DNA of 64,000 bases from NCBI RefSeq assembly GCF_000218895.1, contig NC_015703.1, positions 4,353,001 to 4,417,000 on the forward strand. Direction: 5' to 3'. Each line of letters starts with the position of its first letter. Position 1 is the first letter of the stretch. Shown here piece by piece: positions 40,926 through 55,831 of this stretch. A program made the translations under genes and the position numbers. Source of the stretch: Runella slithyformis DSM 19594. Lineage in GTDB: Bacteria > Bacteroidota > Bacteroidia > Cytophagales > Spirosomataceae. The notes beneath the pieces are model-generated. The model did no database searches and had not been told where the DNA came from. It saw only the letters and a program-made list of their open reading frames with translations.

Positions 40926-42173
40926 ATGAATTCAGTAACGATTATAGGGGGGGGCGTAAGCGGCCTTTTTTCGGCCTATTATCTTCAAAAAGCAGGCTAT
41001 TCGGTCACTATCATTGAGCAGGGCAGTTTTGCAGACGGTTGCTCTTTCGGCAATGCCGGCATGATTGTGCCCAGCCATATTGTACCGCTGGCCCAGCCGG
41101 GTATGATTTCTAAAGGATTGCGCTGGATGCTCAAATCGACAAGCCCGTTTTACGTAAAACCTCGCCTCAGTTGGGATTTGATGAAGTGGGGAATGCTGTT
41201 TTGGAAACACTCCACGGAAGAGCACGTCCGGCGTTCCATTCCCGTATTGCGCGATATCAGCCTGCTCTCCAAAAAGCTGTTTCAGGAACTGGCCGCTTCC
41301 GGTGAGGCCGATTTTGGATGGCATGAGCGCGGATTGCTGATGCTCTACAAAAATGCTGATACCGAACACGAGATGGCCGAAGAAGCGCATCTGGCCAACC
41401 AAGCAGGTATCGTGGCCGAAAGGCTGACCGGTGCACAGGTACAGGCACTTGAACCCGACGTACGCGTAGATGTACGCGGAGCGGTCTATTATCCGGGCGA
41501 CGCGCACATTACGCCTAATTTGCTCTTAAAAAATCTTTTGTCTTTTCTGAAAAACCAAGGGGTACAGGTATTGGAAAACGAAGAAATTTTCGGTTTTGAG
41601 AAAGAGGGAACTGAAATAAGGGCTGTTCAAACGAATAAAGGGAAGCATCACGTAGAAGAGTTAGTGATTGCGGCGGGGGCCTGGTCGCCGGTGTTGACCG
41701 AAAAACTGGGGATTTCGCTGCCATTGCAAGGCGGTAAAGGCTACAGTTTTATGCTTAACAATGTCACCAATAATATTAAAGTACCCGCCATTATGCTCGA
41801 AGCGCGCGCCACGGCTACGCCGATGGGCAGTGACCTGCGTTTTGCCGGTACGCTGGAAGTAGCCGGCACCGACATGACGGTCAACATGAACCGGGTCCGG
41901 GGGATTGTGCAGGGAATCAATAACTACTACCCTGAATTGGAAGTGACATTGCCCAAAGTGGAAAGTGTATGGCGCGGTTTGCGTCCCTGTTCACCGGATG
42001 GATTGCCCTACATCGGACGTGTAAGGGGTTTGGTGAACGTAACCCTTGCGACCGGACACGGTATGATGGGTATCAGCCTCGGGCCGGCAACCGGAAAGCT
42101 CGTGTCAGAAATCATTGCCGGTACTTCCGGTTCTATGGATATAAATGATTTTAACCCTTTAAGATTCGGCTAG
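40926..42173 (+). CDS. FAD-dependent D-amino/imino-acid oxidoreductase
   Basis: 415 aa DadA-like (DAO superfamily). N-terminal dinucleotide motif IIGGGVSGLFSAYYLQKAGY, the FAD-binding SFGNAGMIVPSHIVPLAQPG segment, VIAAGAWSPVLTEKLG and a C-terminal GHGMMGISLGPATGKLVSEI. Oxidises a D-amino or cyclic imino acid; because it precedes a 3-hydroxyproline dehydratase-like gene and a pyrroline-carboxylate reductase-like gene, a hydroxyproline-type substrate is likely. Cytosolic or membrane-bound, passing electrons to quinone by analogy with DadA. Confidence 0.85.
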   Translation: MNSVTIIGGGVSGLFSAYYLQKAGYSVTIIEQGSFADGCSFGNAGMIVPSHIVPLAQPGMISKGLRWMLKSTSPFYVKPRLSWDLMKWGMLFWKHSTEEHVRRSIPVLRDISLLSKKLFQELAASGEADFGWHERGLLMLYKNADTEHEMAEEAHLANQAGIVAERLTGAQVQALEPDVRVDVRGAVYYPGDAHITPNLLLKNLLSFLKNQGVQVLENEEIFGFEKEGTEIRAVQTNKGKHHVEELVIAAGAWSPVLTEKLGISLPLQGGKGYSFMLNNVTNNIKVPAIMLEARATATPMGSDLRFAGTLEVAGTDMTVNMNRVRGIVQGINNYYPELEVTLPKVESVWRGLRPCSPDGLPYIGRVRGLVNVTLATGHGMMGISLGPATGKLVSEIIAGTSGSMDINDFNPLRFG

Positions 42174-42212
42174 TTGTTTCCCTTTAAGGATAAGGTATCT
42201 CGGGTCAAAAAA

Positions 42213-42695
42213 CTAATTTTTGGAGGTTTGGGCGTACGGCATCCCTTTCTTTTTCTTTTGGTAAATTTCCCATTGCTCGGGGGTGAGAATGCCTTTGTAT
42301 TTCTCCTCTTTTTCCGTTTGCCATTTATCCACCGTTTCTCTGATTTGCTGGATTTCCTGCGGGGTCGGGCGAGTGTTGGCGTGGATTTTCATGAACGCTT
42401 CCTGATAATCACTCAACTTTAAGGCGTAATCCAGATTGATGGTTTCAATGGAGATGGATTGGTCTTCGGTAAGTTTTACTCTTTTGTCCAACCACTTGGT
42501 TTGCTCCTCGGCAATCTGGTCGGGCGTAAGGGGTTTTTTAGGCGTTGATGGAAGCTGATTCATACTGCTGCCGAACCCACGGCCACCTCCATAACCTCCA
42601 TATCCACCGCCGTATCCACCGAACTGGGCCATTGTTTGGAAACTTATAAAAAGAGTACCGATAAGACCAAAGGATAATAATTGTATTTTCATCAT
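42213..42695 (-). CDS. Exported Gly-rich protein, LTXXQ-like
   Basis: 160 aa. Signal peptide MMKIQLLSFGLIGTLFISFQ then TMAQ, a FGGYGGGYGGYGGGRGFG glycine-rich stretch, and a helical C-terminal part in which LTPDQIAEEQTKWLDKRVKL, LTEDQ and LTPEQWEIYQKKKKG recur. These LTxxQ-type repeats resemble the Spy/CpxP-like or DUF4890 periplasmic helical proteins. It lies antisense to, and within, the imino-acid cluster, so it is not part of that operon. Possible periplasmic chaperone-like role. Confidence 0.7.
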   Translation of the reverse strand: MMKIQLLSFGLIGTLFISFQTMAQFGGYGGGYGGYGGGRGFGSSMNQLPSTPKKPLTPDQIAEEQTKWLDKRVKLTEDQSISIETINLDYALKLSDYQEAFMKIHANTRPTPQEIQQIRETVDKWQTEKEEKYKGILTPEQWEIYQKKKKGMPYAQTSKN

Positions 42696-42766
42696 ATCTA
42701 TGTTTAGAAAAGTGGTCGAAATGTAGGTATTTTCGAGCCACTTTCAAAAACATCCGTTTCATTTCT

Positions 42767-43831
42767 GTGCTTTTTATGCATCCCTTTTCAGAACGTCTTA
42801 GTAGCTTAACTGCCTGGGAACCACCCAAAAATTGGCTTCAAATCACCGCAATCGACGCGCATACCGGCGGGGAACCTTTGCGGGTCATCACGGGAGGGTA
42901 TCTCGAAATAAAAGGCAATACCATTTTGGAACGACGGGCGTATCTCAAAACACACCTTGATTCGTTGCGAAAAGCCCTGATGTGGGAGCCGCGCGGTCAT
43001 GCCGATATGTACGGGTGCATTATCACCGAGCCGGTGACCGAAGACGCTGATTTTGGGGTGATTTTTTTACACAATGAAGGCTACAGCTCCATGTGCGGTC
43101 ACGGTATTATTGCAGTGACGAAAGTAGCCCTGGAATTGGGGCTGATAGAAATAAAAGAGCCCGTTACAACGCTCCGAATCGACGCACCTGCGGGGCTGAT
43201 CACGGCATATGCCCGTGTGGAAAATAGGCGGGTTATCTCGGTAAAATTTCAGAATGTACCGTCGTTTGTGCTGTACCGCGACCAAGACATCCACGTGCCC
43301 GGAATGGGGAATGTGCGTTTGGATGTGGTATACGGCGGGGCCTTTTATGCGTATGTCAATGCGGATGATTTAGGAATCGGTATGACTGCTGCCGATTATC
43401 GTTTACTGATCGAAAAAGGAATGGCCATTAAAAAAGCCGTAATGGATACGCTTCCCATCGTGCATCCTTTTGAAGAAGATCTGAGTTTTTTGTACGGAAC
43501 CATTTTTTACGGGAAAGGCCACACTCCGGGCACTGACAGCCGGAATGTGTGCATTTTTGCCGATGGCGAAGTGGACCGCAGCCCCACCGGAACGGGTGTC
43601 AGCGGACGCGTGGCGCTGCATCATGCACGGGGTGAACTGGCCTTGGGACAACCAATGGTCATTGAAAGCATTGTCGGTAGCCGATTCGTGGCTTCCGCTC
43701 AGGCAGTGACGACCTTTGGGCCGCATTCGGCGATCATTCCCGAAGTGGAAGGAAACGCCCATATTTGCGGAAAAAATACCTTTTTGCTCGATCCTGAGGA
43801 TGAATTGGGGAAAGGGTTCTTTTTGCGCTGA
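42767..43831 (+). CDS. Trans-3-hydroxy-L-proline dehydratase-like protein
   Basis: 354 aa, proline racemase superfamily. First catalytic Cys in YSSMCGHGIIAVTKVALE; the second position, Cys in racemases and 4-hydroxyproline epimerases (DRSPCGTG), is Thr here (DRSPTGTGVSGRVALH). Cys-plus-Thr defines trans-3-hydroxy-L-proline dehydratases, which yield 1-pyrroline-2-carboxylate. Length and motifs fit that class. The next gene encodes the reductase expected to turn that product into L-proline. Confidence 0.82.
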   Translation: MLFMHPFSERLSSLTAWEPPKNWLQITAIDAHTGGEPLRVITGGYLEIKGNTILERRAYLKTHLDSLRKALMWEPRGHADMYGCIITEPVTEDADFGVIFLHNEGYSSMCGHGIIAVTKVALELGLIEIKEPVTTLRIDAPAGLITAYARVENRRVISVKFQNVPSFVLYRDQDIHVPGMGNVRLDVVYGGAFYAYVNADDLGIGMTAADYRLLIEKGMAIKKAVMDTLPIVHPFEEDLSFLYGTIFYGKGHTPGTDSRNVCIFADGEVDRSPTGTGVSGRVALHHARGELALGQPMVIESIVGSRFVASAQAVTTFGPHSAIIPEVEGNAHICGKNTFLLDPEDELGKGFFLR

Positions 43832-43939
43832 TAAACTTGCCTTCCGGGTGCGTTGATGTGTTGTCGGGTTCTCAAACCCGAAAGATGGATTCGTAAAGCC
43901 GGGAAAATAAACCTTGATTTACTCTAACTTTATACTTCG

Positions 43940-44920
43940 GTGCATACATTTCGCTATTTTTCCCGTCAGGCTGTCGAAGAAGGGGTAACGATGATCGAGG
44001 CCATTGAATTGATGAAAGAAGCCTTTCGCAGTCTCTCAAGGGGGGAGGCCGTAGTGCCGTTGAGGATCAATTTGTCACAAACTGCACAAAATGCCCAAAC
44101 GCTGTTTATGCCCGTGTACCTGCCTTCGGCTGAAGCACTGGGCGTGAAAATGGTCACAGTCTTTCGGGATAATCCGATACAGAATTTACCGCTCATTCAT
44201 GGCCTGATGCTCGTCATGGACGGCACCAACGGACAGCCTCTGGCCCTTTTGGATGCCGAATACCTGACCGCTTTGCGTACGGGTGCGGCGTCGGGGTTGG
44301 CTACCGATCTGCTGGCCCGAAAAGAGGCGAAGGTGTTGGCGGTATTCGGAACCGGAGCGCAGGCCCGTACTCAAACAGAAGGCGTAGCGGCGGTGCGTAC
44401 GTTGGAAAAAGTACTCGTTTTTGGCCGTAATCTCGAAACTGCGGACGCCTTTTGCCACGAAATGCGGATAAAAACAGGGTTACCAATGGAGGTCGCTCAA
44501 CAACCCGAGCGGTTACTGGAGGCAGATATTATCTGTACGGCTACTACGTCAAATGTTCCCGTTTTTGAACATCGTCATCTCAAAAAAGGAGTCCATATCA
44601 ATGGCGTAGGTTCTTACCGCCCCGAGACCCGCGAATTGCCGGGAGAAACCATGCAGGCGGCAAGAATTACGGTAGATCAGCGAACCGCCGCTGCTGCGGA
44701 GGCAGGTGATATTCTACTCCCGATGAACGACGGAATGCTTGGTGAGGCTCCGATTTTTACCGAATTGGGCGAAATTGTGGCAGGGATAAAGTCCGGACGT
44801 AGGTCAGACGACGAAATCACCGTGTTCAAATCCGTCGGCAACGCCGCACAGGATCTGGCGGTGGCGAGTTATCTGGTAAAAAAAGCCGAAGAGTATAATT
44901 TGGGAACGGTTTTAGGCTAA
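43940..44920 (+). CDS. Ornithine cyclodeaminase-family reductase (pyrroline-2-carboxylate reductase-like)
   Basis: 326 aa from GTG 43940; starting there restores the usual family N-terminus (FRYFSRQAVEEGVTMIEAIE). Rossmann region VFGTGAQARTQTEGVAAVRT, substrate-side segment MVTVFRDNP and TALRTGAASGLATDLLA, and the late VFKSVGNAAQDLAVASYLV. This family holds both ornithine cyclodeaminases and NAD(P)H-dependent 1-pyrroline-2-carboxylate reductases; its place right after a 3-hydroxyproline dehydratase-like gene favours the reductase. Confidence 0.82.
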   Translation: MHTFRYFSRQAVEEGVTMIEAIELMKEAFRSLSRGEAVVPLRINLSQTAQNAQTLFMPVYLPSAEALGVKMVTVFRDNPIQNLPLIHGLMLVMDGTNGQPLALLDAEYLTALRTGAASGLATDLLARKEAKVLAVFGTGAQARTQTEGVAAVRTLEKVLVFGRNLETADAFCHEMRIKTGLPMEVAQQPERLLEADIICTATTSNVPVFEHRHLKKGVHINGVGSYRPETRELPGETMQAARITVDQRTAAAAEAGDILLPMNDGMLGEAPIFTELGEIVAGIKSGRRSDDEITVFKSVGNAAQDLAVASYLVKKAEEYNLGTVLG

Positions 44921-44944
44921 AATGCTTATTTTTTGTACAAATCC

Positions 44945-44975
44945 TTGACAATCCTGCGCGGCTCACCTACATTTG
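44945..44975 (+). promoter_or_regulatory. his operon promoter
   Basis: -33-like TTG at 44945-44947, a 20-base spacer, then TACATTTG at 44968-44975, an exact TAnnTTTG match. The predicted start point is about 44981, roughly 20 bases before the leader peptide start. The whole arrangement fits a Bacteroidota sigma-A promoter driving the leader and hisG. Confidence 0.7.
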
Positions 44976-44999
44976 CAGCAGCAATTTGTACAATTCTTC

Positions 45000-45062
45000 G
45001 TGAAAACACGCAACTACGCTTTCTTTCGACATCATCACCACCACGCCTGCGGGCGAGCGTAG
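45000..45062 (+). CDS. hisL: His-rich leader peptide of the his operon
   Basis: A 20-codon frame from GTG 45000 to TAG 45060-45062 reads MKTRNYAFFRHHHHHACGRA: five consecutive His codons (CAT CAT CAC CAC CAC) at 45030-45044. It lies between a promoter and hisG (start 45224), the usual place for an attenuator leader. The last His codons can form a weak stem with 45075-45079 (CACGC with GCGTG), and the 3' half (TGCGTGT at 45074-45080) can instead pair with ACGCGCA at 45164-45170. I could not find a convincing hairpin with a T-run before hisG, so the output structure remains open. The gene symbol is by analogy with enterobacterial hisL. Confidence 0.75.
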   Translation: MKTRNYAFFRHHHHHACGRA

Positions 45063-45223
45063 ATACCATTCCATGCGTGTGGCTTCAGGATATAAGTCAT
45101 TCGTTTTCATTAACTTTGCTTCCTACTTCGTGTCAGAAAGGCTTCCATGGGGTAGCAATCGTACGCGCACAGGCAGAGAACCCACTCAATCATTTGCTCA
45201 TTTATTCTTTTCGTTATTCAAAA

Positions 45224-46078
45224 ATGTTACGCATTGCCATTCAGAAATCAGGACGTCTCAGCGACGATTCCATCAAATTATTCAAAGAATGCGGTATTCA
45301 GTTTGACAGCAGTTCTTCCGGGAAATTAAAGTCGATCTCCGCCAATTTTCCCGCAGAATTTTTATTCCTGCGCGACGATGACATTCCCGGCTACGTCGAA
45401 GACGGCGTGGCAGACCTGGGCATTGTCGGCGAAAATGTGTACACCGAAACGGGGCGTGAAGTAAACGTAGTGCATAAACTGGGATTTTCGAAATGCCGGC
45501 TTTCGCTGGCCATTCCGCGCGGCACGCAGTGGAACGGTGTACAGGACCTGCACGGATGCGGCATTGCCACGTCATACCCGCGCATTTTGGGAAATTACCT
45601 GAAAGAAAACGGCGTTGAAGCGGAGATTCACGAAATCAGCGGCTCAGTGGAGATCGCTCCGAGCATCGGTTTGGCCGATGCCGTGTGTGATATTGTCAGT
45701 TCGGGAAGTACGTTGTTGAGCAATGGACTCAAAGAGGTCGAAGTGATTTACCGCTCGGAAGCCATTCTGATTGCAGCACCCGGGCTGAGTGGTGAAAAAG
45801 CCGCGCTGCTCGATAAGGTCATGTTTCGTATCAAGGCGGTACAGGCTGCTCAAAACAATAAATACATTTTGCTTAATTGCCCGGCCGATGCCGTCGACAA
45901 GATCATGCAATATATCCCCGGCATGAAAGCACCGACCGTGTTGCCGCTGGTGACGGAAGGTTGGGTGTCGCTGCATTCGGTCATCAACGAAAACGATTTC
46001 TGGACCAACATCGAAAAGATCCGCGAAGCCGGTGCTGAAGGGATTTTGGTGATACCGATTGAGAAAATGATACGATAA
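45224..46078 (+). CDS. hisG: ATP phosphoribosyltransferase
   Basis: 284 aa from MLRIAIQKS; a frame extends upstream to 44933 but it runs through the leader-peptide region and is not HisG-like. First enzyme of histidine synthesis, joining PRPP and ATP, and normally feedback-inhibited by His. Long form with the C-terminal regulatory ACT-like domain: KSGRLSDDSIKLFKECGI at the start, VADLGIVGENVY, SYPRILGNYLKENGVEAEIH, SGSVEIAPSIGLADAVCDIV SS and the regulatory tail (KYILLNCPADAVDKIMQYIP). The first structural gene after the leader. Confidence 0.95.
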   Translation: MLRIAIQKSGRLSDDSIKLFKECGIQFDSSSSGKLKSISANFPAEFLFLRDDDIPGYVEDGVADLGIVGENVYTETGREVNVVHKLGFSKCRLSLAIPRGTQWNGVQDLHGCGIATSYPRILGNYLKENGVEAEIHEISGSVEIAPSIGLADAVCDIVSSGSTLLSNGLKEVEVIYRSEAILIAAPGLSGEKAALLDKVMFRIKAVQAAQNNKYILLNCPADAVDKIMQYIPGMKAPTVLPLVTEGWVSLHSVINENDFWTNIEKIREAGAEGILVIPIEKMIR

Positions 46079-46081
46079 AAC

Positions 46082-46130
46082 AGGAGTGAGTAGTGAGGAG
46101 CAGGAATTCAGTACTGAGCACTACTCATTG
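46082..46130. repeat. GGAGTGAGGAG-type intergenic repeat, second copy
   Basis: AGGAGTGAGTAGTGAGGAGCA (written as AGGAGTGAG plus TAGTGAGGAGCA), then after a short spacer GAGCACTACTCA, its near-complement. It lies in the 70-base gap between hisG and hisD and matches the element at 25294-25368 in unit sequence and palindromic build. Confidence 0.6.
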
Positions 46131-46148
46131 CTTTCCAATGTATGAACT

Positions 46149-47417
46149 ATGCAAATTATCCCTTACCCCGACCGCAGTGAATGGGCTGCGCTTTTAGCCC
46201 GGCCGACACAGAGCATGGCCAATATCGAAAAGGCCGTTGCCCCTATTCTGGAACAGGTGCAGAAAGAAGGCGATGCCGCGTTGCGCGCGTTGGCGCTGAA
46301 ATTTGATAAAATTGATCTTGCCGAGATCGCGATGCCGCTGGAAACGGTGGCGGCCGCTGAGACAAGTTTAACCGAAGAGCTCAAAGCGGCGATTCGGCAG
46401 GCTTATGCCAATATTCGAAAGTTTCATGAGGCGCAGTATCAGCCCGCTGAAAAAATTGAAACTATGCCCGGGGTTACCTGCTGGCGGCGCAGCGTAGGCA
46501 TTGAAAAGGTAGGCTTATACATTCCCGGCGGTTCGGCTCCGCTGTTCAGTACGGTGCTGATGCTGGGCGTCCCGGCTCAATTGGCCGGCTGTAAAGAGGT
46601 TGTTCTCTGTACGCCGAGCGACCACCCCGCCATTTTGTACGCGGCACAATTGGTGGGTGTTACGAAGATTTTCCGTATCGGCGGTGCGCAGGCTATTGCG
46701 GCCATGGCCTACGGAACCGAATCCGTTCCTAAAGTCTACAAGATATTCGGGCCGGGCAACCAATACGTTACGGCGGCAAAAATGCTGTTGGCGAAAGAGG
46801 GCGTGGCCATTGACATGCCGGCGGGTCCCTCAGAAGTGGCGATTTACGCGGACGGATCGGCGGTACCGTCGTTTGTGGCGGCCGATCTGTTGTCGCAGGC
46901 AGAGCATGGAGCCGACAGCCAGGTGCTGCTGGTATCGACAGATAAGAAATTTTTAGCTTCGGTAAACCTTACGCTTGCTACGCAATTGGAAGGCCTGCCC
47001 CGGAAAGAATTGGCGCGAAAGGCGATTGAAAACAGCAAAGCGATCCTGGTGGAAGATGAAGCCGAAGCCATTGACCTGCTCAATGAGTATGCGGCAGAAC
47101 ACCTGATCCTGAGTGTGCAGAATGCCGAAGCCCTCAGTGAAAAGATCATCAATGCCGGCTCTGTTTTTCTGGGAAATTATACCCCCGAATCCTGCGGAGA
47201 TTATGCCTCGGGCACCAATCACACCCTGCCGACCAACGGCCACGCCCGGGCGTACAGCGGAGTATCGTTGGATAGTTTCGTAAAAAAGATCACCGTCCAG
47301 CACATCACGCCTGAAGGTCTCAAAGCTCTGGGACCGACAGTCGAGGCCATGGCCGAAGCCGAGTCGCTCTACGCGCATAAGCGTGCCGTAAGCTTGCGTT
47401 TGAGCAGTTTGAAATAA
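46149..47417 (+). CDS. hisD: Histidinol dehydrogenase
   Basis: 422 aa. Last two steps of histidine synthesis (histidinol to histidine, NAD-dependent, zinc enzyme). Motifs: CWRRSVGIEKVGLYIPGG, YKIFGPGNQYVTAAKMLLAK, IDMPAGPSEVAIYAD, the zinc-site LLSQAEHGADSQ and SCGDYASGTNHTLPT. Full length. The operon order hisG-hisD-hisC is normal apart from the insert that follows. Confidence 0.96.
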   Translation: MQIIPYPDRSEWAALLARPTQSMANIEKAVAPILEQVQKEGDAALRALALKFDKIDLAEIAMPLETVAAAETSLTEELKAAIRQAYANIRKFHEAQYQPAEKIETMPGVTCWRRSVGIEKVGLYIPGGSAPLFSTVLMLGVPAQLAGCKEVVLCTPSDHPAILYAAQLVGVTKIFRIGGAQAIAAMAYGTESVPKVYKIFGPGNQYVTAAKMLLAKEGVAIDMPAGPSEVAIYADGSAVPSFVAADLLSQAEHGADSQVLLVSTDKKFLASVNLTLATQLEGLPRKELARKAIENSKAILVEDEAEAIDLLNEYAAEHLILSVQNAEALSEKIINAGSVFLGNYTPESCGDYASGTNHTLPTNGHARAYSGVSLDSFVKKITVQHITPEGLKALGPTVEAMAEAESLYAHKRAVSLRLSSLK

Positions 47418-47457
47418 CGTAGGGGCAGGCCTTGCGTCTGCTCGATTTCGCCTGCCC
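47418..47457. repeat. GTAGGGGCAGGC-type intergenic repeat
   Basis: CGTAGGGGCAGGCCTTGCGT, then CTGCTCGATTTCGCCTGCCC, directly after the hisD stop; the GGGCAGGC and GCCTGCCC arms can pair. A related element follows the lolD stop at 62303. A further GCCTTGCA/TGCAGGC pair lies at 47498-47515. Confidence 0.65.
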
Positions 47458-47555
47458 AATAGCAAACGAGCATTATAAACGCCATTCCCGCCGCGTTTGC
47501 CTTGCAAATGCAGGCGAGTGTAGTAAATTGCATTACACTTGAAAAAAGCGCAAAC

Positions 47556-48872
47556 ATGGAAGAGATTTTTGTGACCAAACTTCGCATCAATAAGGTTCGC
47601 CATCTGGAAAACCTCGAAATTCCATTGTCCGAAACCGAGCGTAAGCACTTGATTTTGACGGGAAAAAACGGGAGTGGAAAGACGAGTGTGCTAGAGGGGA
47701 TTAATACTTTTTTGAATTGGATTTTAAATTCTCAAACTCAGGAAACAGAAGTTGAAGAAAACGTACAGCAATATATTTTTTATAAAAATGAAATAAAGCA
47801 ACGGGAAGCAAGAATGGCCAAAGGCTATAACGAATCTTATGGGCATTATCAATGGAAGGGAGATGCTGTGAATGTTCAGGATATGCAATCAAAAATAGTG
47901 CGTTATCAAACCTTTGTTGAATCCTGTACTCCTGTTCAGCTATTATCAAATGTTGACTTATATAGTGAGGGAAACTTTCAAAAAGTAAATTGGCGATTTG
48001 GTGATTTTATTCTCAAGTATTTCCCTTCAAAGCGTTTTTTTCAACCTAAGGAATCTCTAGGCCCCCAAAAAATTGAACTCAAAGAACAATATAATATTAA
48101 AGAAAATGCAAGTGAAAACTTTGTTCGTCAATTAGTTAATCTACGTTTGGATTTATTGGATGCGAAAGATACAGGCAAAACGTGGGAGGTTGAAAAAGTT
48201 GAGAATTGGTTCAAACAATTCGAAACTACACTTAGAAAAATTTTTGATGATGAGTCTCTTGAATTAGTTTTTGACCGATCCAGTTTTAATTATAATATTG
48301 TTACAAAAGGGAAAGGGTTATTTAACTTAAATCAGCTTTCCGATGGATATGCAGCATTTTTGTCGATAGTCTCTGAATTAATGATGAGAATGGATAAAAA
48401 GTTTGAGATGATAAGACCCTACGATCTCCAAGGCATCGTTCTGATTGACGAAGTAGAAACTCATCTGCACATTGATTTACAAAAGAAAATACTTCCGTTT
48501 TTAACATCGTTCTTCCCAAAGATTCAATTCATTGTTACCACACACTCGCCTTTTGTGCTGAGTTCGATTGACAATGCGGTGATCTATGATTTGGAAAAGC
48601 AGGAAAGAGTAGAGGATTTATCGGCTTATTCTTATACAAATATTGTCAAGGGCTACTTTGGAACCGATGAATATTCCAATGAAATTAAGGAGAAAGTAGT
48701 TGATTATGAGCGTTTATTAAACAGAATAAAGGGCAGTACAGCTAACCTTTCAATTGAGGAAAAAGAACAGTTTTATGAATTGAAAAAGTATTTTGAGGAA
48801 TTGCCCAAATCACTTTCACCTGAACTGCAACTCAAGATTCAACAATTAGAACTTGCCCAATTAGCTCAATGA
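47556..48872 (+). CDS. AAA/ABC-type ATPase of a Septu-like (PtuA-like) module
   Basis: 438 aa from MEEIFVTKLR. SMC/RecF-like ATPase: Walker A LTGKNGSGKTSVLEGI (residues about 35-48), a middle coiled and helical insert, the signature-like QLSDGYAAFLSI (about 259-270), Walker B GIVLIDEVETHLH (about 294-306) and the H-loop IVTTHSPFVLSS (about 325-337). An HNH nuclease gene overlaps its stop by ATGA. This pair matches PtuA plus PtuB of Septu anti-phage systems; related ATPase-HNH pairs also accompany some retrons, but no reverse transcriptase is here. Visibly AT-richer than hisD and hisC, with Lys/Glu/Asn-rich content, suggesting transfer. Defence function is inferred. Confidence 0.78.
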   Translation: MEEIFVTKLRINKVRHLENLEIPLSETERKHLILTGKNGSGKTSVLEGINTFLNWILNSQTQETEVEENVQQYIFYKNEIKQREARMAKGYNESYGHYQWKGDAVNVQDMQSKIVRYQTFVESCTPVQLLSNVDLYSEGNFQKVNWRFGDFILKYFPSKRFFQPKESLGPQKIELKEQYNIKENASENFVRQLVNLRLDLLDAKDTGKTWEVEKVENWFKQFETTLRKIFDDESLELVFDRSSFNYNIVTKGKGLFNLNQLSDGYAAFLSIVSELMMRMDKKFEMIRPYDLQGIVLIDEVETHLHIDLQKKILPFLTSFFPKIQFIVTTHSPFVLSSIDNAVIYDLEKQERVEDLSAYSYTNIVKGYFGTDEYSNEIKEKVVDYERLLNRIKGSTANLSIEEKEQFYELKKYFEELPKSLSPELQLKIQQLELAQLAQ

Positions 48873-49546
48873 TAAATATTTTAAAATCACAGCCTGCTCC
48901 TGAATGTTTAGCGTCAGAATCTCAAAAAGTCAGCGGCGATTATAAGTGTGGAGATGTATTACATCGAATTAAGCAAGATTTTAAAAATAAGTGCTATATC
49001 TGCGAAACAAAAGGCCCTACCACTATTAACGTTGAACATTTCTTGCCTCATCGCGGAGATGTTCAACGAAAGTTTGATTGGAATAATCTTTTTTATGTTT
49101 GTGGACATTGTAATAATACAAAGTTAGCTAAGTCTCAATACGATAATATTTTAGATTGTACCAACTCTGATAACCGAGTTGTAGATTTAATTGAACATAT
49201 TTTTGGTCCATTAAAGTCTGATTCCCTTGATTTTAAAGCTCAAATTCAAAGCCAAATAGTTCTTAATACGGTGGCACTTTTGGAAGAAGTATAGGATGGT
49301 AAAACTGTTTTGAAAAAAATTGAAGCCGAAAATATCATTCATGCTCTTACCAAAGAGATGAATAACTTTGTGCATTTTGCTACAGGATATTTAAAATCAG
49401 ACGACAATCCACAAGCAAGACGAGATTTTCATGAACTGATAGTTGCTAAATTGAAACCGGAGACTGCTTTTACAGCCTTCAAAATATGGGTTGTCAAATC
49501 AAACCCGAAACTTTTAAAAGAATTTGCAGAATACCTACCACAATGA
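48869..49546 (+). pseudogene. HNH nuclease (PtuB-like) interrupted by in-frame TAG
   Basis: The first 141 codons hold the HNH/zinc site: CYIC at residues 42-45, VEHFLPHRGD, FDWNNLFYVCGHC (Cys 78 and 81) and NN. A TAG at 49292-49294 follows LLEEV. The same frame then continues without a break as DGKTVLKKIEAENIIHALTK and on to a TGA at 49544-49546, giving an extra 83 residues of protein-like helical sequence. So a 225-aa nuclease appears cut by one base change (a Tyr codon TAT or TAC to TAG is likely). The truncated product keeps the whole zinc/HNH core and might still act. Its ATG overlaps the ATPase stop and its final stop overlaps the hisC start. Confidence 0.72.
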
Positions 49547-50601
49547 CATTTGACTTAACGAAAATCCTCCGTCCGCATATCCTTAATTTGGTGCCGTACT
49601 CCTCGGCACGGGATGAATATACGGGCAAAGAAGGTATCTTTTTGGATGCCAATGAAAACCCTTATCAATCGGTGAACGGACAGCACTGGAACCGTTATCC
49701 CGACCCGTATCAGTGGGCCATCAAAGAAAAACTGGCACCCATCAAGGGCGTACGTCCCACGCAGATCTTTCTGGGCAATGGCTCCGATGAGCCGATTGAC
49801 CTGTTGGTACGGGCCACCTGTACCCCCCGGGAAGATACCATGCTGCTCATGCCGCCCACCTACGGGATGTATCAGGTAAGCGCCGATATCAACGACGTGC
49901 CGGTCATCAAAGTACCGCTGACGCCTGATTTTCAAATTGATACTCCGGGTGTATTGGCGGCGTTGACCCCCCATACCAAAATCGTATGGATATGTTCGCC
50001 CAATAATCCCAGCGGCAACTTGGTTCGGCGGGAGGCGATCGTGGAGATTCTGAACACCTTTGAAGGATTGGTGGTGGTCGATGAAGCCTACATTGACTTT
50101 GCGAGTGAGCCGTCGTTTACGCAGGAGTTGGATAATTATCCCAATTTGATCGTGTTGCAGACCTTTTCCAAAGCCTGGGGATTGGCGTCGTTGCGCTTAG
50201 GAATGTGCTTTGCGTCTGAAGCAATCATTAAGGTACTGAACAAGATCAAGCCGCCCTACAACCTGAGCGGTGCCACGCAGCAATTGTTACTTGAAGCGCT
50301 GGATTACGTCGAAACTAAGAATCAATTGGTAAAGGATATTTTAGCGGAGCGGGAACAATTGCGCACGAATTTAGCCGCCCTGCCGTTAGTAAAGAGGATC
50401 TATCCCTCAGATTCCAACTTTTTGCTCGTCGAATTTGACGATGCTTACGCGGTAATGCAGTACCTGATTGACCAAAAAATCATCGTGCGCGACCGTTCAA
50501 AAGTGATCCTGTGTGAGGGATGTCTGCGCATCACGGTCGGAACGTTGGAAGAAAATACTACGTTGGTTCAAACACTGAACGCATTCGCCGTTATGGCCTG
50601 A
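49543..50601 (+). CDS. hisC: Histidinol-phosphate aminotransferase
   Basis: 352 aa from MTFDLTKILRP, starting at the ATG that overlaps the nuclease stop (ATGA); the frame is open upstream to 49486 but that part lies inside the nuclease gene. PLP-dependent class I/II aminotransferase of histidine synthesis: FLDANENPYQS, LGNGSDEPIDLLVRA, CSPNNPSGNL, VVDEAYIDFAS and the Schiff-base lysine in TFSKAWGLASLRLG. Probably translated in part by coupling to the nuclease gene, an unusual arrangement for an essential biosynthetic gene. Confidence 0.95.
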   Translation: MTFDLTKILRPHILNLVPYSSARDEYTGKEGIFLDANENPYQSVNGQHWNRYPDPYQWAIKEKLAPIKGVRPTQIFLGNGSDEPIDLLVRATCTPREDTMLLMPPTYGMYQVSADINDVPVIKVPLTPDFQIDTPGVLAALTPHTKIVWICSPNNPSGNLVRREAIVEILNTFEGLVVVDEAYIDFASEPSFTQELDNYPNLIVLQTFSKAWGLASLRLGMCFASEAIIKVLNKIKPPYNLSGATQQLLLEALDYVETKNQLVKDILAEREQLRTNLAALPLVKRIYPSDSNFLLVEFDDAYAVMQYLIDQKIIVRDRSKVILCEGCLRITVGTLEENTTLVQTLNAFAVMA

Positions 50602-50657
50602 CCGATGAGGGTTGGGACGTCGAAGATTGTCTTTGGGAAACATTAACTCTATTTTAA

Positions 50658-51191
50658 ATGAAAAAGAAGCTTTTAATGACCCTGCTTTTTGCCTCTTTTA
50701 CGGTTTTGCCGTCCTTGGCTCAGTACAATAATTGGGCGGTGGGATTTCAATTGGTGGAGCCTTCCGGGCTGAATCTTCGGAAATATTATGGTGAAAACAA
50801 AGCCTTAGACGTTTCGTTGGGTACGTACGGACTGTTTTACGGCCGCGACCGCAAGTACCGTAAGGGCTACTATCAGAATGCCGGATTTTCATTACGGGTC
50901 AATCATTTGTGGCATCGCGGTTTATTCAAAGCGGAAAAGCTGCACGTCTATTACGGTTTTGGCGGACAGATCAACTCGCGTCGGTATTATTTTAACGCAA
51001 GCAATGCGCCCGGAGTTAATGTGTTTACCAATACTATTTCTCTGGGCGGTTCGGGATTGGCGGGTGCCGAATATTTTGTAGATAACAGCCCTTTGTCCCT
51101 GTTTTTAGAAGGCGGTTTGTACGTGGAACTGATTCCCGATATCTTTTACCTTCATCCGCAGGCAGGCATCGGCGTACGCTTTAATTTTTGA
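50658..51191 (+). CDS. Small outer-membrane beta-barrel-like protein
   Basis: 177 aa. Signal peptide MKKKLLMTLLFASFTVLPSLA, then alternating amphipathic strands (WAVGFQLVEPSGLNLRKYY, ALDVSLGTYGLFYG, LHVYYGFGGQIN, LFLEGGLYVELIPDIFY) ending in a C-terminal aromatic F (GIGVRFNF), as outer-membrane barrels do. An eight-strand barrel is plausible. Function unknown. A strong terminator follows. Confidence 0.75.
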   Translation: MKKKLLMTLLFASFTVLPSLAQYNNWAVGFQLVEPSGLNLRKYYGENKALDVSLGTYGLFYGRDRKYRKGYYQNAGFSLRVNHLWHRGLFKAEKLHVYYGFGGQINSRRYYFNASNAPGVNVFTNTISLGGSGLAGAEYFVDNSPLSLFLEGGLYVELIPDIFYLHPQAGIGVRFNF

Positions 51192-51216
51192 AAGTTTAAA
51201 AGATTGATATACAGAA

Positions 51217-51266
51217 ATCGCGGGCAGCCTTTCGCGAAAGGTTGCCCGCGATGGTTTTTATTTTTA
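51217..51266 (+). terminator. Strong intrinsic terminator
   Basis: A near-perfect long stem spans 51217-51252 (ATCGCGGGCA at its 5' arm, TGCCCGCGAT at its 3' arm) and is followed by a T-rich run to 51266. It ends the outer-membrane protein transcript and lies before the convergent gpsA. Confidence 0.88.
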
Positions 51267-51311
51267 TGGGTTTATTATCTACCCTTATGATTATTTCTCA
51301 AAAAATTTCTT

Positions 51312-52301
51312 CTACCGAAGCTTCCTCTTCAACGCTCCGATTTCAGCCGCCGGTGGCTGACGTTCGTACAGTATTTTGTACGCCGCTTCGGTGATGGGCA
51401 TCTCCACACCGTATTTTTTGTTCATATCAAAAATACTGTTGACCGCGTAGTAGCCTTCGGCAATCATTTTCATTTCCATTTGGGCCGATTGTACGCTGTA
51501 GCCGCGTCCGATCATGTTGCCAAAGGTACGGTTGCGGCTGAACTGCGAATAGGCCGTTACCAACAGGTCCCCCAAATAGGCCGAGGCACTCAGATCACGC
51601 TCGCGCGGATCAACGGCATCGACAAACCGCCTGATTTCCTGCATGGCATTGGAAACCAATACCGCCTGAAAATTATCTCCGTAGCCGAGTCCGTGGCTGA
51701 TACCGCAGGTTAGGGCTACAATGTTTTTCATCACGGCGGCGTATTCCACGCCGTAGAGGTCAGTCAAGGGATTGGCCGTGACAAAGCGGCAACTCATCAA
51801 TTGGGAGAAATCGGCGGCGCAGGCAGCATCGGTCGAAGCAATGGTCAGGTAAGATTGTTTTTCCAAAGCCACTTCCTCGGCATGGCAGGGCCCGGCTATG
51901 ACGGAGATTTGACTAATCGGTACCTCAAAATGATCTTCAACCCAATCGGTGACCAGACAGTTACTCGTAGGAATCATTCCTTTAATGGCTGATACCACGC
52001 GCTTTCCCGCAAAGTGCTGAGGCGTAAGGCCCGACAGCGGCTCCTGCACAAAAGCCGCCGGAATGGCCAAAATGATGTACTCTGCACCGTTTATGGCATC
52101 CGCGATTTTTGTGAATGTTTTTACTTTGCGGGGACTTAATCGTACGTCGCGGAGGTAATCGGGATTGTAATGGTGTTTGCGGATATGGTCAACGGCTGCC
52201 CGGTCGCGTAGCCACCAGCGGATGGAGACGTTGTTTTCCGAAAGGATTTTGATAATGGCAGTGGCCCAACTGCCACCACCGATCACGGCGATTGAGGTCA
52301 T
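51312..52301 (-). CDS. gpsA: Glycerol-3-phosphate dehydrogenase [NAD(P)+]
   Basis: 329 aa. Makes sn-glycerol-3-phosphate for phospholipid synthesis. N-terminal IAVIGGGSWATAIIKILSEN, the VVSAIKGMI segment, ISVIAGPCHAEEVALEK, GVEYAAVMKNIVALTCGISH with the catalytic Lys, and RDLSASAYLGDLLVTAYS-type motif. Full length. Confidence 0.94.
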   Translation of the reverse strand: MTSIAVIGGGSWATAIIKILSENNVSIRWWLRDRAAVDHIRKHHYNPDYLRDVRLSPRKVKTFTKIADAINGAEYIILAIPAAFVQEPLSGLTPQHFAGKRVVSAIKGMIPTSNCLVTDWVEDHFEVPISQISVIAGPCHAEEVALEKQSYLTIASTDAACAADFSQLMSCRFVTANPLTDLYGVEYAAVMKNIVALTCGISHGLGYGDNFQAVLVSNAMQEIRRFVDAVDPRERDLSASAYLGDLLVTAYSQFSRNRTFGNMIGRGYSVQSAQMEMKMIAEGYYAVNSIFDMNKKYGVEMPITEAAYKILYERQPPAAEIGALKRKLR

Positions 52302-52377
52302 TTGTCAGGATTGGTGTTCGTAGCGCAAACTTGCAAAAAAAGCCCCGACTTTACACTTCGTCCCGTAAACTTTCCCC

Positions 52378-52503
52378 TTATTTCTCACAGCCGCAGCCCT
52401 TGCCGCAGCCCGAGTTCTTGGGGCTGAGTTCTTTGCGCAGGCGGTTGCCGACGTAACCGATCGCCCCTAAGAAAAGGGTGCCGATGATGATGGATTCCCA
52501 CAT
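52378..52503 (-). CDS. FeoB-associated Cys-rich miniprotein
   Basis: 41 aa. A short membrane helix (MWESIIIGTLFLGAIGYVGN), a basic stretch (RLRKEL) and a tail GCGKGCGCEK of closely spaced cysteines, as in the FeoB-associated Cys-rich membrane protein family linked to ferrous iron uptake. No feoA or feoB is near, so here it is an orphan or serves another transporter. Too short for common ORF thresholds. Confidence 0.7.
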   Translation of the reverse strand: MWESIIIGTLFLGAIGYVGNRLRKELSPKNSGCGKGCGCEK

Positions 52504-52649
52504 ATTCGAAGAATGTTAACTTTTTAATGCGACCGCGGGGGTTTTCAGAGCGTTTTACCGAACAGTATAAAACATATCGCCCATCGCTTTCGTCCAAAAC
52601 GCCTTTTTGCGTAATTGCGTTCCTGATGATCCTTTTCCGTTTCAAAAAT

Positions 52650-53885
52650 ATGAAAAATACAATTACCGAATCTGCTTCCTCCAACCGTTTGCTCAGCTTG
52701 CCCGTGATCGTATCTGCCTTGGGCTATTTCGTCGATGTCTATGATCTGATCGTATTCAACATTGTGCGCGTACCGAGCCTGAAAAGCCTGGGCCTGAGTC
52801 CCGAAGAAGTGTCGAGTGTGGGGGCAACGATCTACAATTGGCAGCAGGCCGGTCTGCTTTTGGGGGGGATTCTGTGGGGGATTCTGGCCGATAAACGCGG
52901 TCGACTTTCGGTGTTGTTTGGCTCTATCATCATGTATTCGTTGGCCAATATTCTCTGCGGTTTTGTACAAACGCCCATCATGTATGGAGTTTTACGCTTT
53001 ATCGCCGGGGTAGGCTTGGCGGGAGAATTGGGGGCCGGGCTGACACTGGTGGCTGAAATATTGCCCAAACATCTACGTGGATACGGCTCTTCGATCGTGG
53101 CGAGTGTGGGGCTTTTAGGCGCGGTGGTGGCCTTTTTGACCAATTCGTGGTTTGACTGGAGGACCACCTATTTTGCGGGTGGCGGTTTAGGCTTAGCATT
53201 GCTGCTGCTGCGGGTGCGCGTGTACGAGTCGGGTATGTTTGAGCAGGCCAAGACCCAAAGCTCACAGCGAGGCAGTATGCGCGCGCTGTTTGCCGACAGC
53301 GTCCGTTTTTGGAAATACATGCGCTGCATCGGCGTGGGCGTACCCACCTATTTTGTCATCGGAATTTTGGCTACGTTCAGCAATGAATTTGCCAAAGCGC
53401 TCGGCATCACAGAGGAGATCGTGACCGGACGTTGCGTGATGTACGTTTTTGTCGGAACCGTGGTGGGAGATATGTTCAGCGGCCTGTTGAGCCAATGGCT
53501 CAAATCGCGTCGTATGGCCATCGGAAGTATGACCACCATGACGCTGATAGGCGTTGTTTTTTACCTGTATGGCGGTATAAAACAGGCAAACACTTTCTAT
53601 TTGACCTGTGCCTATCTGGGCTTTTCGATTGGCTACATTGCCATGTTTTTGACCGTGACGGCCGAAAGTTTCGGGACCGATCTGCGGGCTACGGCTACCT
53701 CCACCGTCGCCAATTTTGTGCGGGCCACTACGTTGCTTACCCTGCCGCTGTACCAATACCTTAAACCCGATGTAGGGGCCATTTCGGCGGGAGGTTTGGT
53801 GGCGCTGCTTTGTTTTGTCATTGCGTATCTATCCCTCTTCCTGATGGAAGAAACTTTCCATAAAGACTTAGACTACGTGGAATAA
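52650..53885 (+). CDS. MFS transporter
   Basis: 411 aa from MKNTITESA, chosen over the longer frame from 52527 because the first transmembrane helix (LPVIVSALGYFVDVYDLIVF) follows it at once. Twelve predicted membrane helices; the inter-helix signature GILWGILADKRGRLSVLFGS (the MFS A-motif) is clear. Helix 5 region carries GVGLAGELGAGLTLVAEILP. Substrate unknown; resembles organic-acid or sugar porters. Confidence 0.88.
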   Translation: MKNTITESASSNRLLSLPVIVSALGYFVDVYDLIVFNIVRVPSLKSLGLSPEEVSSVGATIYNWQQAGLLLGGILWGILADKRGRLSVLFGSIIMYSLANILCGFVQTPIMYGVLRFIAGVGLAGELGAGLTLVAEILPKHLRGYGSSIVASVGLLGAVVAFLTNSWFDWRTTYFAGGGLGLALLLLRVRVYESGMFEQAKTQSSQRGSMRALFADSVRFWKYMRCIGVGVPTYFVIGILATFSNEFAKALGITEEIVTGRCVMYVFVGTVVGDMFSGLLSQWLKSRRMAIGSMTTMTLIGVVFYLYGGIKQANTFYLTCAYLGFSIGYIAMFLTVTAESFGTDLRATATSTVANFVRATTLLTLPLYQYLKPDVGAISAGGLVALLCFVIAYLSLFLMEETFHKDLDYVE

Positions 53886-53917
53886 AAGAACTCTTTGTCC
53901 GTTAATGGTAAATAAAG

Positions 53918-53950
53918 CCGGGCGTGCCTTTACAGGTACGCCCGGTTGTT
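53918..53950 (+). terminator. Intrinsic terminator after the MFS gene
   Basis: CCGGGCGTGCC pairs with GGTACGCCCGG (53918-53945, one G-T pair) around TTTACA, followed by TTGTTT. It sits between convergent genes and may serve both. Confidence 0.75.
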
Positions 53951-53988
53951 TCAGTAGGATACATGTTGTGATTCATTACACGGGGGTG

Positions 53989-54369
53989 TTATTTATGCAC
54001 TTCGCCGTGAATAGTTAGGGTCATTAATCCTCCATAAGCATTAGATTCGACGGTTACGGTTTTGTTAAAGAAGCCGATATTAGCCGCATTAAAAGTGGCT
54101 TTGACTGCGCCCGATGCTCCGGGCATAATTGGCTCTTTGGGATATTCCACTCCTGTGCATCCGCACGAGCCGTATGCTTTACTGATGATCAGCGGAGCTT
54201 CGCCTTTGTTGGTGAATTTAAACTCGGTTGTCACGGGTTTTCCCTGTGTGATTTGGCCGAAGTTATGCTCGGTCTCTACCCAGCGAAACGCAGCCGCAGC
54301 CGCACCGGCAAATACGACCGACGTCGCAATAAACAGAAGTGGTCCTAAAAGAAGAGTTACTTTTTTCAT
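53989..54369 (-). CDS. DUF1573 exported protein
   Basis: 126 aa. Signal peptide (MKKVTLLLGPLLFIATSVVF, then AGAAAAAF), followed by one DUF1573 immunoglobulin-like module: EHNFGQITQGKPVTTEFKFT, NKGEAPLIISKAYGSCGCTG and the final VESNAYGGLMTLTIHGEV. The GSCGCTG cysteine pair is typical. Periplasmic; function unknown. Confidence 0.87.
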   Translation of the reverse strand: MKKVTLLLGPLLFIATSVVFAGAAAAAFRWVETEHNFGQITQGKPVTTEFKFTNKGEAPLIISKAYGSCGCTGVEYPKEPIMPGASGAVKATFNAANIGFFNKTVTVESNAYGGLMTLTIHGEVHK

Positions 54370-54583
54370 TGAAATGAGTCTTTGTATGATTAATTTATTT
54401 TTGTCAATCGACAGGTCAAAAGTACCGGCTTTGGGTGGATGCAGGTGTTAATAAAAACTCAAGTTTTGTTAATGGATCGTTAATCTCCGGATAAGAATCT
54501 GCATACGTCCTGTATTTCTATGTAATTTTTAGTTAATATTGCCAACAGGCATTTATTTATAACCCGTAGGCCTGCATCTGTTT

Positions 54584-55831
54584 ATGTCAAGAACCACCAT
54601 ACGCCTTCTGGTCATTCTCTCCACTTTATCCATCGTCGGTGTCATTGTGACTCAAATCTATTGGGTGAGAAAAGCCTTGGCAATGCGTGAGCGACAGTTC
54701 AATCAGCAGGTACACGTATCCCTTCAGGAAGTGGCGGAAGAGCTGGCCCGGCTCAATGCGGTGATGCTGCATAATAATCCCGTAGAGCAGCTTACTTCGA
54801 ATTACTTTTTGGTCAATACGAACTCAATGGTTGACCCCGGAATTCTGGAACATTACCTGAAAAGCAGTTTTGTTAAACACAATATCATTACCGATTTTGA
54901 GGTCGGAATCTACGATTGTGCCACCAATAAAATGTTTTACGGCGTAGCGTTGAGCACCCGGAATGAACGCAGGATGCCCACTCAAACAGCCCATTGGCTG
55001 AAGTCAAATAAATATCCCTATTATTTTGGTGTACGTTTTTCCGGCCAGAACAATGCCGTCATCAACGACCTTAAAGGCTGGATATGGTCGTCGCTTTTGG
55101 TGCTGATCGCGGTGGTCTTTTTTGGGTATGCCCTGTTTGTGATCTTACGGCAAAAGCAGTTGACAGAAGTGCAGCGTGACTTTATCAACAACATGACCCA
55201 CGAGTTACAAACGCCCATTGCCACGATTCGAATCGCGGCCGATGTACTCAATACCCCCGCTATCAAAGACCAGCCCGAACGACTGAAAAAATATTCTGAA
55301 ATTATTAAGGAAGAAGCGCTTCGCCTGCAAACACAGGTAGAAACGGTGCTGAATATGGCCAAGGCTGAAAAAAACAAGTTGCCGCTGAATATTGAGTGGC
55401 TGGATGTCCATCAGATCATCAGTTTGTTAGTGACCAAATATGAAAATAATCTGAGCGTTCAGCTGAAAGCCACGGAACCTTATATTCATGCTGATCGAAT
55501 GCATTTAACCAACGCCATTACCAATTTATTGGATAATGCCTTTAAATACACCCCCGAAAATCCCGTTATTCAATTAAAGACGTTCAATGAAAATGGATCC
55601 TTGGTGGTGTCGGTCAAAGACAATGGCATAGGAATTGCACCGGAACACCGGAGTAAAGTCTTTAAAAAGTTTTACCGGGTTCCTACCGGCAATGTCCACA
55701 ATGTGAAAGGTTTTGGCATCGGCCTGAGTTATGTGCATCAAATTGCGAAAGCCCATCATTGGAAACTGCAACTTGACAGCGAAGAAGGGAAAGGAAGTGA
55801 ATTTAAAATTTCCATCCCTCTGAAAAAGTAG
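54584..55831 (+). CDS. Sensor histidine kinase (HisKA type)
   Basis: 415 aa. Two membrane helices (LLVILSTLSIVGVIVTQIYW near the start; WSSLLVLIAVVFFGYALFVI at about 167-186) enclose a sensor region of about 140 residues. H-box INNMTHELQTPIATIRIAAD (phospho-His), N-box AITNLLDNAFKYTPEN and G boxes DNGIGIAPEH and GFGIGLSYVHQI. The OmpR-type regulator lies 99 bases downstream, so together they form a two-component system. Confidence 0.92.
   Translation: MSRTTIRLLVILSTLSIVGVIVTQIYWVRKALAMRERQFNQQVHVSLQEVAEELARLNAVMLHNNPVEQLTSNYFLVNTNSMVDPGILEHYLKSSFVKHNIITDFEVGIYDCATNKMFYGVALSTRNERRMPTQTAHWLKSNKYPYYFGVRFSGQNNAVINDLKGWIWSSLLVLIAVVFFGYALFVILRQKQLTEVQRDFINNMTHELQTPIATIRIAADVLNTPAIKDQPERLKKYSEIIKEEALRLQTQVETVLNMAKAEKNKLPLNIEWLDVHQIISLLVTKYENNLSVQLKATEPYIHADRMHLTNAITNLLDNAFKYTPENPVIQLKTFNENGSLVVSVKDNGIGIAPEHRSKVFKKFYRVPTGNVHNVKGFGIGLSYVHQIAKAHHWKLQLDSEEGKGSEFKISIPLKK

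Follow-up and report, generated by a model that had tools for sequence, protein, structure and literature searches.

A Septu-type ptuA-ptuB pair in the hisD-hisC slot of Runella, with a probably exchanged body and an interrupted ptuB in Runella slithyformis

The hisD and hisC genes of Runella slithyformis DSM 19594 (family Spirosomataceae) are separated by two co-directional open reading frames (ORFs), one for an SMC-like ATPase and one for an HNH protein. We analysed a stretch of 64,000 nucleotides (nt) of contig NC_015703.1 that contains them (the window; C4:4353001-4417000 of this genome, which is G000 in our collection), and window positions are used throughout. An earlier note, made from the letters of this DNA alone, had placed the ATPase ORF ahead of the HNH ORF between hisD and hisC and had read them as PtuA and PtuB, the pair that makes up Septu anti-phage systems. 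The coordinates and the NCBIfam matches of the flanking genes agree with that placement, and a search with PADLOC profiles bore out the identity of both proteins. The features of the locus, with the E-values of their profile matches, are as follows.

44933..46078, plus strand: hisG ORF (TIGR00070, 7.7e-57); the NCBIfam match runs from residue 99 on, so the true start is probably further in
46149..47417, plus strand: hisD, histidinol dehydrogenase, flanking the slot on the left (NCBIfam TIGR00069, 1.4e-152)
47418..47555, plus strand: hisD-ptuA spacer, 138 nt, with a short dispersed repeat at its start
47556..48872, plus strand: ptuA, Septu ATPase, 438 amino acids (aa), open, with ATG at 47556 and TGA at 48870-48872 (PDLC00268, 2.3e-118)
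47556..47696, plus strand: ptuA head, codons 1-47, with third-position GC content (GC3) of 0.55-0.60 like the his genes and conservation at the DNA level
47697..49516, plus strand: AT-rich, probably exchanged body of ptuA-ptuB, left edge approximate
48869..49294, plus strand: ptuB, translatable part, 141 aa with the HNH core (PDLC00321, 6.1e-48, profile 1-139 of 223)
49292..49294, plus strand: in-frame TAG within ptuB
49295..49546, plus strand: remainder of ptuB 3' of the stop, 83 codons and TGA in the same frame (49310-49543: PDLC00331, 2.4e-9, profile 145-218 of 222)
49517..49546, plus strand: ptuB 3' tail, last 9 codons and TGA, near-identical to the tail of G001 (26/27 nt) and not to that of G010, which has the closest body; partly present in two empty sites
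49543..50601, plus strand: hisC, right flank, its ATG overlapping the TGA of the ptuB frame at 49544-49546 (NCBIfam TIGR01141, 2.7e-106)

By profile and gene order, this locus is a Septu (PtuA/PtuB)-type pair. The PtuA match spans residues 4-434 (profile 3-402 of 411), and AAA_21, AAA_15 and SMC_N score above their Pfam cut-offs in the same protein, while Pfam HNH falls just below its cut-off in the downstream one (20.7 of 21.4 bits). The PtuA translation contains GKNGSGKT, LSDG, VLIDE and TTHSPF, which we take to be the Walker A, signature, Walker B and H-loop motifs and which are kept in the four Runella PtuAs; likewise, the Cys/His/Asn pattern of the HNH core is kept at most positions in the Runella PtuBs. 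A sequence search of the PDB matched PtuA chains (best 1.5e-23), and the same search with PtuB gave nothing better than an E-value of 0.22. The two genes are adjacent and co-directional and share an ATGA at 48869-48872, as had been noted. The AT-rich composition described earlier holds for the body of the module (GC 0.338 for ptuA without its first 141 nt and 0.333 for ptuB; hisD has 0.55 and hisC 0.50) but does not extend to the first 141 or so nt of ptuA, where GC is 0.447 and GC3 is host-like.

To compare this junction among relatives, as the earlier note had proposed, we searched 13 Runella genomes for hisD, PtuA and hisC and then read the junctions. The slot is variable. Septu occupies it in five genomes (G000; G001, which is Runella aurantiaca YX9; G008; G009; and the partly assembled G010), and in the other eight (G002-G007, G011 and G012) it is empty, with hisC directly behind hisD and 42 to 104 nt between the two matches, the hisD stop counted in. 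The same core genes flank variable defence content across the genus, as they do at core defence hotspots. All three other complete PtuAs have PDLC00268 as their best model, and the three complete PtuBs share the two best models of the R. slithyformis protein in reverse order; in G010 ptuA was not found and the contig ends inside ptuB, whose assembled part matches PDLC00331 (8.7e-35). A 4-nt overlap joins ptuB to hisC in each of these four junctions. Searching 222 genomes of the family for this PtuA subfamily (E<=1e-60) returned four, G000, G001, G008 and G009, all at this slot. This is not the picture of an ancestral pair carried by all close relatives and devoid of defence matches: the relatives vary and the defence matches are strong. 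In G008 (locus L166, 2120-3713), two toxin-antitoxin-like pairs, Xre with RES and then DUF6364 with PIN_3, lie upstream of Septu in the same gap.

Two of the empty junctions, in G004 and G006, end in 17 nt identical to the 3' end of ptuB in G000 and G001. Over the same region G008, G009 and G010 have 6-11 nt in common with them, and in the remaining six empty genomes 0-8 nt agree with G000. We consider these 17 nt likely to be the scar of a lost ptuB. The earlier proposal that loss of the module would be polar on hisC is unsupported as stated, as 8 of 13 Runella genomes keep hisC behind hisD without an insert, two of them with the likely scar; these empty relatives argue against hisC needing the module.

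The alleles in occupied slots do not follow the history of the genes around them. A tree of the flanks (hisG, hisD, hisC and gpsA; G008 has no gpsA match) contains a tight clade of G001, G004, G006 and G010, whose DNA is 93-95% identical. Compared with G000, this clade stands at 83%, G009 at 81% and G008, the most distant, at 73%. Within the tight clade, G001 carries one allele (beta), G010 another (alpha), and the two remaining genomes are empty. The flanks of G001 and G010 agree at 93% of DNA positions, with synonymous divergence (dS) of 0.31 and nonsynonymous divergence (dN) of 0.012, yet their PtuBs are only 0.346 identical, with dN of 0.71 over 159 codons. The opposite pattern is found between G000 and G010, where flank dS is 1.15 and the PtuBs are 0.871 identical with dS of 0.56 (163 codons). 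One rate of change fails to explain both pairs, and we conclude that an allele was replaced.

Tree tests point the same way. The approximately unbiased (AU) test rejects G001 and G010 as PtuB sisters (p 3.2e-5) and rejects the full species tree for PtuB (3.2e-7) and PtuA (7.9e-5; middle segment 3.0e-6, C-terminal segment 0.013). In its middle part, the PtuA of G009 groups with three outgroups and not with the other Runella proteins (support 100), and in its C-terminal part it groups with G008 (93). Columns 51-150 of the PtuA alignment are hypervariable, with identity of 0.08-0.33 in four windows between G000 and G001. Synonymous divergence alone was rejected as a proof of exchange, as the his genes themselves are near saturation between G000 and G001; because of this saturation, the argument rests on the close pair G001-G010 and on a mismatch between body and tail. 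Quartet site patterns were too few for use.

That mismatch lies at the 3' end of ptuB. Over the 50 codons before the tail, identity is 0.88 between G000 and G010 and 0.46-0.58 in the nine other pairs. Over the last nine codons, G000 matches G001 at 26 of 27 nt, and G009 matches G010 equally well. Body and tail thus have different partners, with a switch within about 30 nt of hisC.

The 5' end of ptuA also resembles the host. The last 36 nt upstream of its ATG are identical in G000 and G001, and in codons 1-47 these genomes differ at 10.0 of 30.7 synonymous sites, as against 22.0 of 32.0 in a Walker-B block of comparable conservation in protein (1.00 and 0.96). GC3 of the head is 0.55-0.60 in all four Runella ptuAs, in the range of the his genes and gpsA (0.53-0.60), and falls to 0.20-0.30 in the body up to the Walker-B block; in none of the four does a later 47-codon window come up to the value of the head.

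In R. slithyformis itself the module is interrupted. The HNH gene had been described as running to 49546, but the in-frame TAG at 49292-49294, 248 nt ahead of the hisC ATG, ends ptuB at 141 of 225 codons. Past the TAG, 83 further codons of the frame remain open up to the TGA at 49544-49546; within them, 49310-49543 aligns with the last third of the PtuB profiles that the first part had matched (best E-value 2.4e-9). PtuB is full length in G001, G008 and G009 (226, 226 and 225 codons) and in three outgroups; the assembled part of G010 is open at the TAG position, leaving the stop in one of the five Septu-bearing Runella genomes. The ATGA link to hisC at 49543-49546 is present in the DNA, as the earlier note had it, but can be reached from the ptuB start only by reading through the TAG, and the proposed fusion of the module into the translation chain of the operon is broken here, while the overlap is intact in the four other Septu-bearing junctions. 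Between G000 and G010, the ratio of nonsynonymous to synonymous differences per site (pN/pS) is 0.136 before the stop and 0.113 after it, and the low value behind the stop would fit a recent stop. The lost part covers over a third of the profile and includes AFTAFK, which all three complete PtuBs of Runella have and of which the outgroups have a looser version. Because this conserved motif goes with the lost third, we expect little or no activity from this copy, which is probably inactive or weakened. Two further PtuA/PtuB-like ATPase-HNH pairs, both open, lie elsewhere in the same genome, at C4:6563600-6564265 (L002) and C4:6343354-6343653 (L003). One pair matches PDLC00281 (1.8e-174) and PDLC00351 (9.2e-89), the other PDLC00269 (5.6e-151) and PDLC00340 (9.8e-94), so that the cell may still have Septu even if the his-operon copy is lost. 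One more match, the fourth in this genome, is weak (3.9e-4; L004).

Taken together, these comparisons make it probable that a Septu module sits in a fixed hisD-hisC slot of Runella, that its body has been exchanged or removed by homologous recombination, and that the R. slithyformis copy is likely inactive or weakened. The slot is common to several Runella species, and we infer that recombination would act through the conserved his flanks, the ptuA head and the ptuB tail, either swapping the middle of the module or removing it, which would leave close species with very different alleles or with none. In an intact system, the SMC-like PtuA would assemble with PtuB and license its HNH nuclease; on infection PtuB would cleave nucleic acid, which is tRNA in some systems and DNA in others, and phage production would stop. 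In R. slithyformis, removal of the last third of PtuB by the stop would leave this copy inactive or weakened.

Several observations weigh against parts of this reading. The contrast between head and Walker-B block is clear in G000-G001 only; the corresponding synonymous differences are 15.5/30.2 and 19.0/31.8 for G000-G009, 15.5/29.8 and 16.0/31.2 for G001-G009, and 27.0/30.8 and 25.0/31.8 for G000-G008. One body window of G008 has a GC3 of 0.532, nearly at the head value of 0.553, and the outgroup PtuAs show a weaker difference in the same direction (head/body 0.60/0.42, 0.57/0.40 and 0.42/0.33); as the outgroup heads are also richer in GC3, part of the head effect is intrinsic to the family. 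The AU test does not reject a looser PtuB tree in which G000, G001 and G010 simply group together (p 0.137), and the tree tests use three distant, long-branch outgroup proteins and, for the full tree, also require Runella monophyly. The strongest comparison covers 159-163 codons of a single draft, G010 (790 contigs, 83% complete), with ptuB at a contig end. Synonymous divergence between G000 and G001 is 0.617 for ptuA overall and 0.576 for the flanks, both near saturation. As pN/pS is as low 3' of the TAG as 5' of it, the stop may be recent or the tail may still matter. The 17 nt in G004 and G006 may instead be hisC leader that ptuB took over; we think this the less likely of the two, since the end of PtuB is nearly unchanged in G008 through synonymous changes.

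A donor outside Runella with above about 50% identity was not found among viral contigs, phages, plasmids, and samples of genomes from the phylum and the class. In the viral contigs, the window PtuA as query gave three pattern matches and a four-row profile gave 167, none of them a relative, and the phages gave no match at 1e-20. Among 72,556 plasmid records two matched, one from Persicobacter (43.8%) and one from E. coli (30.2%). The sample of 395 phylum genomes contained one match outside the genus, in two places of G502 (43%, and 50% over 196-435), and in the sample of 395 class genomes the subfamily occurred in G000 and G001 only.

Beyond Runella, we surveyed the positions of hisD and hisC in 222 genomes of the family, with figures taken from the matches listed. 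At least 129 genomes outside Runella have both genes, and at least 112 have them on one contig and strand. Among the matches listed for these 112, the gap is below 300 nt in 32, 300-1,500 nt in 52, 1,500-15,000 nt in 23 and larger in 5. All 28 gaps listed for genus g33 (Spirosoma, where G191 is S. luteum) are at least 675 nt, four more of its genomes having the genes on different contigs or strands, and in genus g8 the gap is about 1 kb in 36 of the 47 genomes listed; g8 is probably Dyadobacter, judging by matching gap and gene pair. We fetched 39 junction stretches from 38 genomes, mostly picked for having a gap. The ORF kinds most frequent in them are peptide deformylase (29), class V aminotransferase-like (19), small antitoxin-like (18), PIN (18), RES (11), Xre (9) and GNAT (9) proteins, all listed ORFs running in the direction of the his genes. 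The aminotransferase-like label is a reading of the sequence, and the one antitoxin-like protein searched had no Pfam match. The small antitoxin-like ORFs adjoin PIN ORFs, and RES goes with Xre; co-directional Xre-RES pairs stand at the junction in 5 of 80 named loci, four from Dyadobacter (L010, L011, L012 and L015) and one from Spirosoma luteum (L014). In Runella, the junction was seen to carry Septu, with Xre-RES and DUF6364-PIN as well in G008; across the family, it was seen to carry toxin-antitoxin pairs and metabolic genes. Insertions between hisD and hisC are therefore frequent, and in sister genera they include toxin-antitoxin pairs. Spirosoma junctions, for example L180, L189 and L210, hold peptide deformylase, often beside the class V aminotransferase-like gene, and in G196:C1 the junction has widened to 36.9 kb with many ORFs (hisD 7300315 to hisC 7263423; L197 and L200).

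We tentatively put forward a broader reading, which we hold to be possible and short of probable. The ptuA head, with the stretch just upstream of it and the P-loop, and the ptuB tail, overlapping the hisC start, would belong permanently to the his operon. Only the middle, which would do the sensing and cutting, would be exchanged between Runella species, by recombination through host genes, without a mobile element and with the operon still working. With toxin-antitoxin pairs at this junction in sister genera, the his operon could have housed self-limiting defence throughout the family, and such defence might be linked to amino-acid state through this operon-embedded slot for immune alleles.

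That last element, which the earlier note had also raised, would have the module co-transcribed with hisG-hisD-hisC and raised on histidine shortage. In its favour, the module is co-directional and 138 nt behind hisD, an ATGA overlap with hisC occurs in all five Septu-bearing junctions (with an interrupted frame in G000), and other genomes of the family have Xre-RES and PIN toxin-antitoxin pairs between hisD and hisC in the same direction. The histidine-responsive promoter that had been suggested is unsupported: no regulatory RNA was found, Rfam giving no match at E<=0.1 over 44000-52500, and the 138-nt spacer, with its predicted hairpins and repeat, could hold a promoter of its own. Metabolic genes occupy the junction too, and we regard a link between defence and amino-acid state as rather doubtful. 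The spacer hairpins are no stronger than those of shuffled sequences (z -1.36); a promoter scan, run with a promoter pattern of another type, gave 12 hits against 9.3 in shuffles (standard deviation (sd) 2.9), and a terminator scan gave 3 against 6.3 (sd 2.2), neither better than shuffles. The repeat, at 47418-47460, has 36 other matches in the genome, all to the first 43 nt of the spacer.

Nor is the stop in ptuB likely to be harmless. A 141-aa PtuB might need no partner but PtuA, or might be complemented by a C-terminal piece with its own start, as the HNH core (residues 42-85) lies upstream of the stop and the codons behind it are still conserved between G000 and G010; against this stand the six full-length PtuBs from Runella and the outgroups and the size of the missing part, AFTAFK included.

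Two histories without exchange are less probable still. In the first, a single recent insertion would have brought Septu into the his operon, with expression from the his promoter and coupling to hisC, in keeping with the AT-rich body and the absence of the module from eight genomes of the genus; we think this improbable, given that the same slot is filled in G009 and in the distant G008, that two empty sites carry the likely scar, and that the host-like ptuA head and the ends shared between genomes weaken it. The horizontal origin proposed by the earlier note holds in that transfer of DNA was involved, and not as a simple insertion, the slot being common to several species and the body exchanged. 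In the second, one ancestral insertion would have descended vertically and been lost in places, and pressure from phages would have made the proteins evolve very fast, as the hypervariable PtuA middle and the confinement of the module to one slot in one genus of the family might suggest; it has equally little chance of being correct, in view of the G001-G010 contrast between flanks and PtuB, the rejection of the species tree and the different partners of ptuB body and tail.

The exchange of bodies within a fixed slot, which we favour, has parallels in known systems. In hsdS of type I restriction systems, alleles are exchanged such that conserved stretches frame an exchanged variable part, as in the Runella slot; the exchanged part of Septu differs in not being a DNA-specificity subunit. 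Defence hotspots of Pseudomonas aeruginosa, as far as the accessible text of PMC10250203 describes them, are alike in that the site between core genes is fixed, the defence content varies and GC is lower, and integration hotspots of E. coli (PMC10121019, likewise from part of its text) are alike in the first two respects. Unlike both, the Runella slot lies within an operon for biosynthesis, contains a single kind of defence system in divergent alleles and has exchange points within the defence genes. The discussion in the accessible part of PMC10250203 names transfer by recombination through conserved flanks as a possibility for future work.

Runella offers a small, clean case in which the turnover of a defence system can be traced by codon, as the slot and the kind of system stay the same, the bodies diverge, the ends are shared, likely scars remain and one genome carries a stop. 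It makes testable the idea, found in the available portion of PMC10250203, that defence content moves through shared flanks by homologous recombination, and it points to a junction within a biosynthetic operon where several genera of a single family house modules for defence and toxin-antitoxin pairs. Among the titles and openings of abstracts listed in a literature search, with most subscription journals outside it, none dealt with Septu or toxin-antitoxin pairs in a his operon.

Compared with Septu systems as modelled by PADLOC (PtuA1/PtuB1), the Runella pair is alike in having an ATPase followed by an HNH nuclease, overlapping genes, a nearly full-length PtuA match and a PtuB match up to the stop. 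It differs in its position inside an amino-acid operon and in the ptuB cut short in G000, and the nearest relatives that the searches turned up were alleles of this very slot and not copies carried by mobile elements. Work by Li et al. in 2024 reportedly deals with the assembly of PtuA with PtuB. Septu EcB88 (PMC13096335) and the PtuAB of retron Ec78/Eco7 (PMC11555353) have the same domain order, according to the parts of these papers that are accessible. There, the ATPase and HNH motifs of EcB88 are described as essential, with infection triggering cleavage of tRNA-Tyr (PMC13096335), PtuAB of retron Eco7 depletes tRNA-Tyr (PMC11555353), and another Septu targets nicked DNA, as cited in PMC11555353. 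By analogy, the Runella proteins may share the division of labour of E. coli PtuAB.

By NCBIfam scores the pair does not belong to the PtuAB families of retron I-A Ec78, for which the models NF041760 and NF041761 gave 145.3 of 500 bits and 34.6 of 150 bits, far below their cut-offs. As far as Rfam models cover an msr-msd RNA, the scan of 44000-52500 gave no match beside the genes at E<=0.1. NCBIfam and Pfam found no reverse transcriptase among the 12 neighbouring proteins searched (40926-55831). NCBIfam identified hisG, hisD, hisC, gpsA and an ornithine cyclodeaminase-like gene among these neighbours, and seven more were compared with Pfam, two being without a match.

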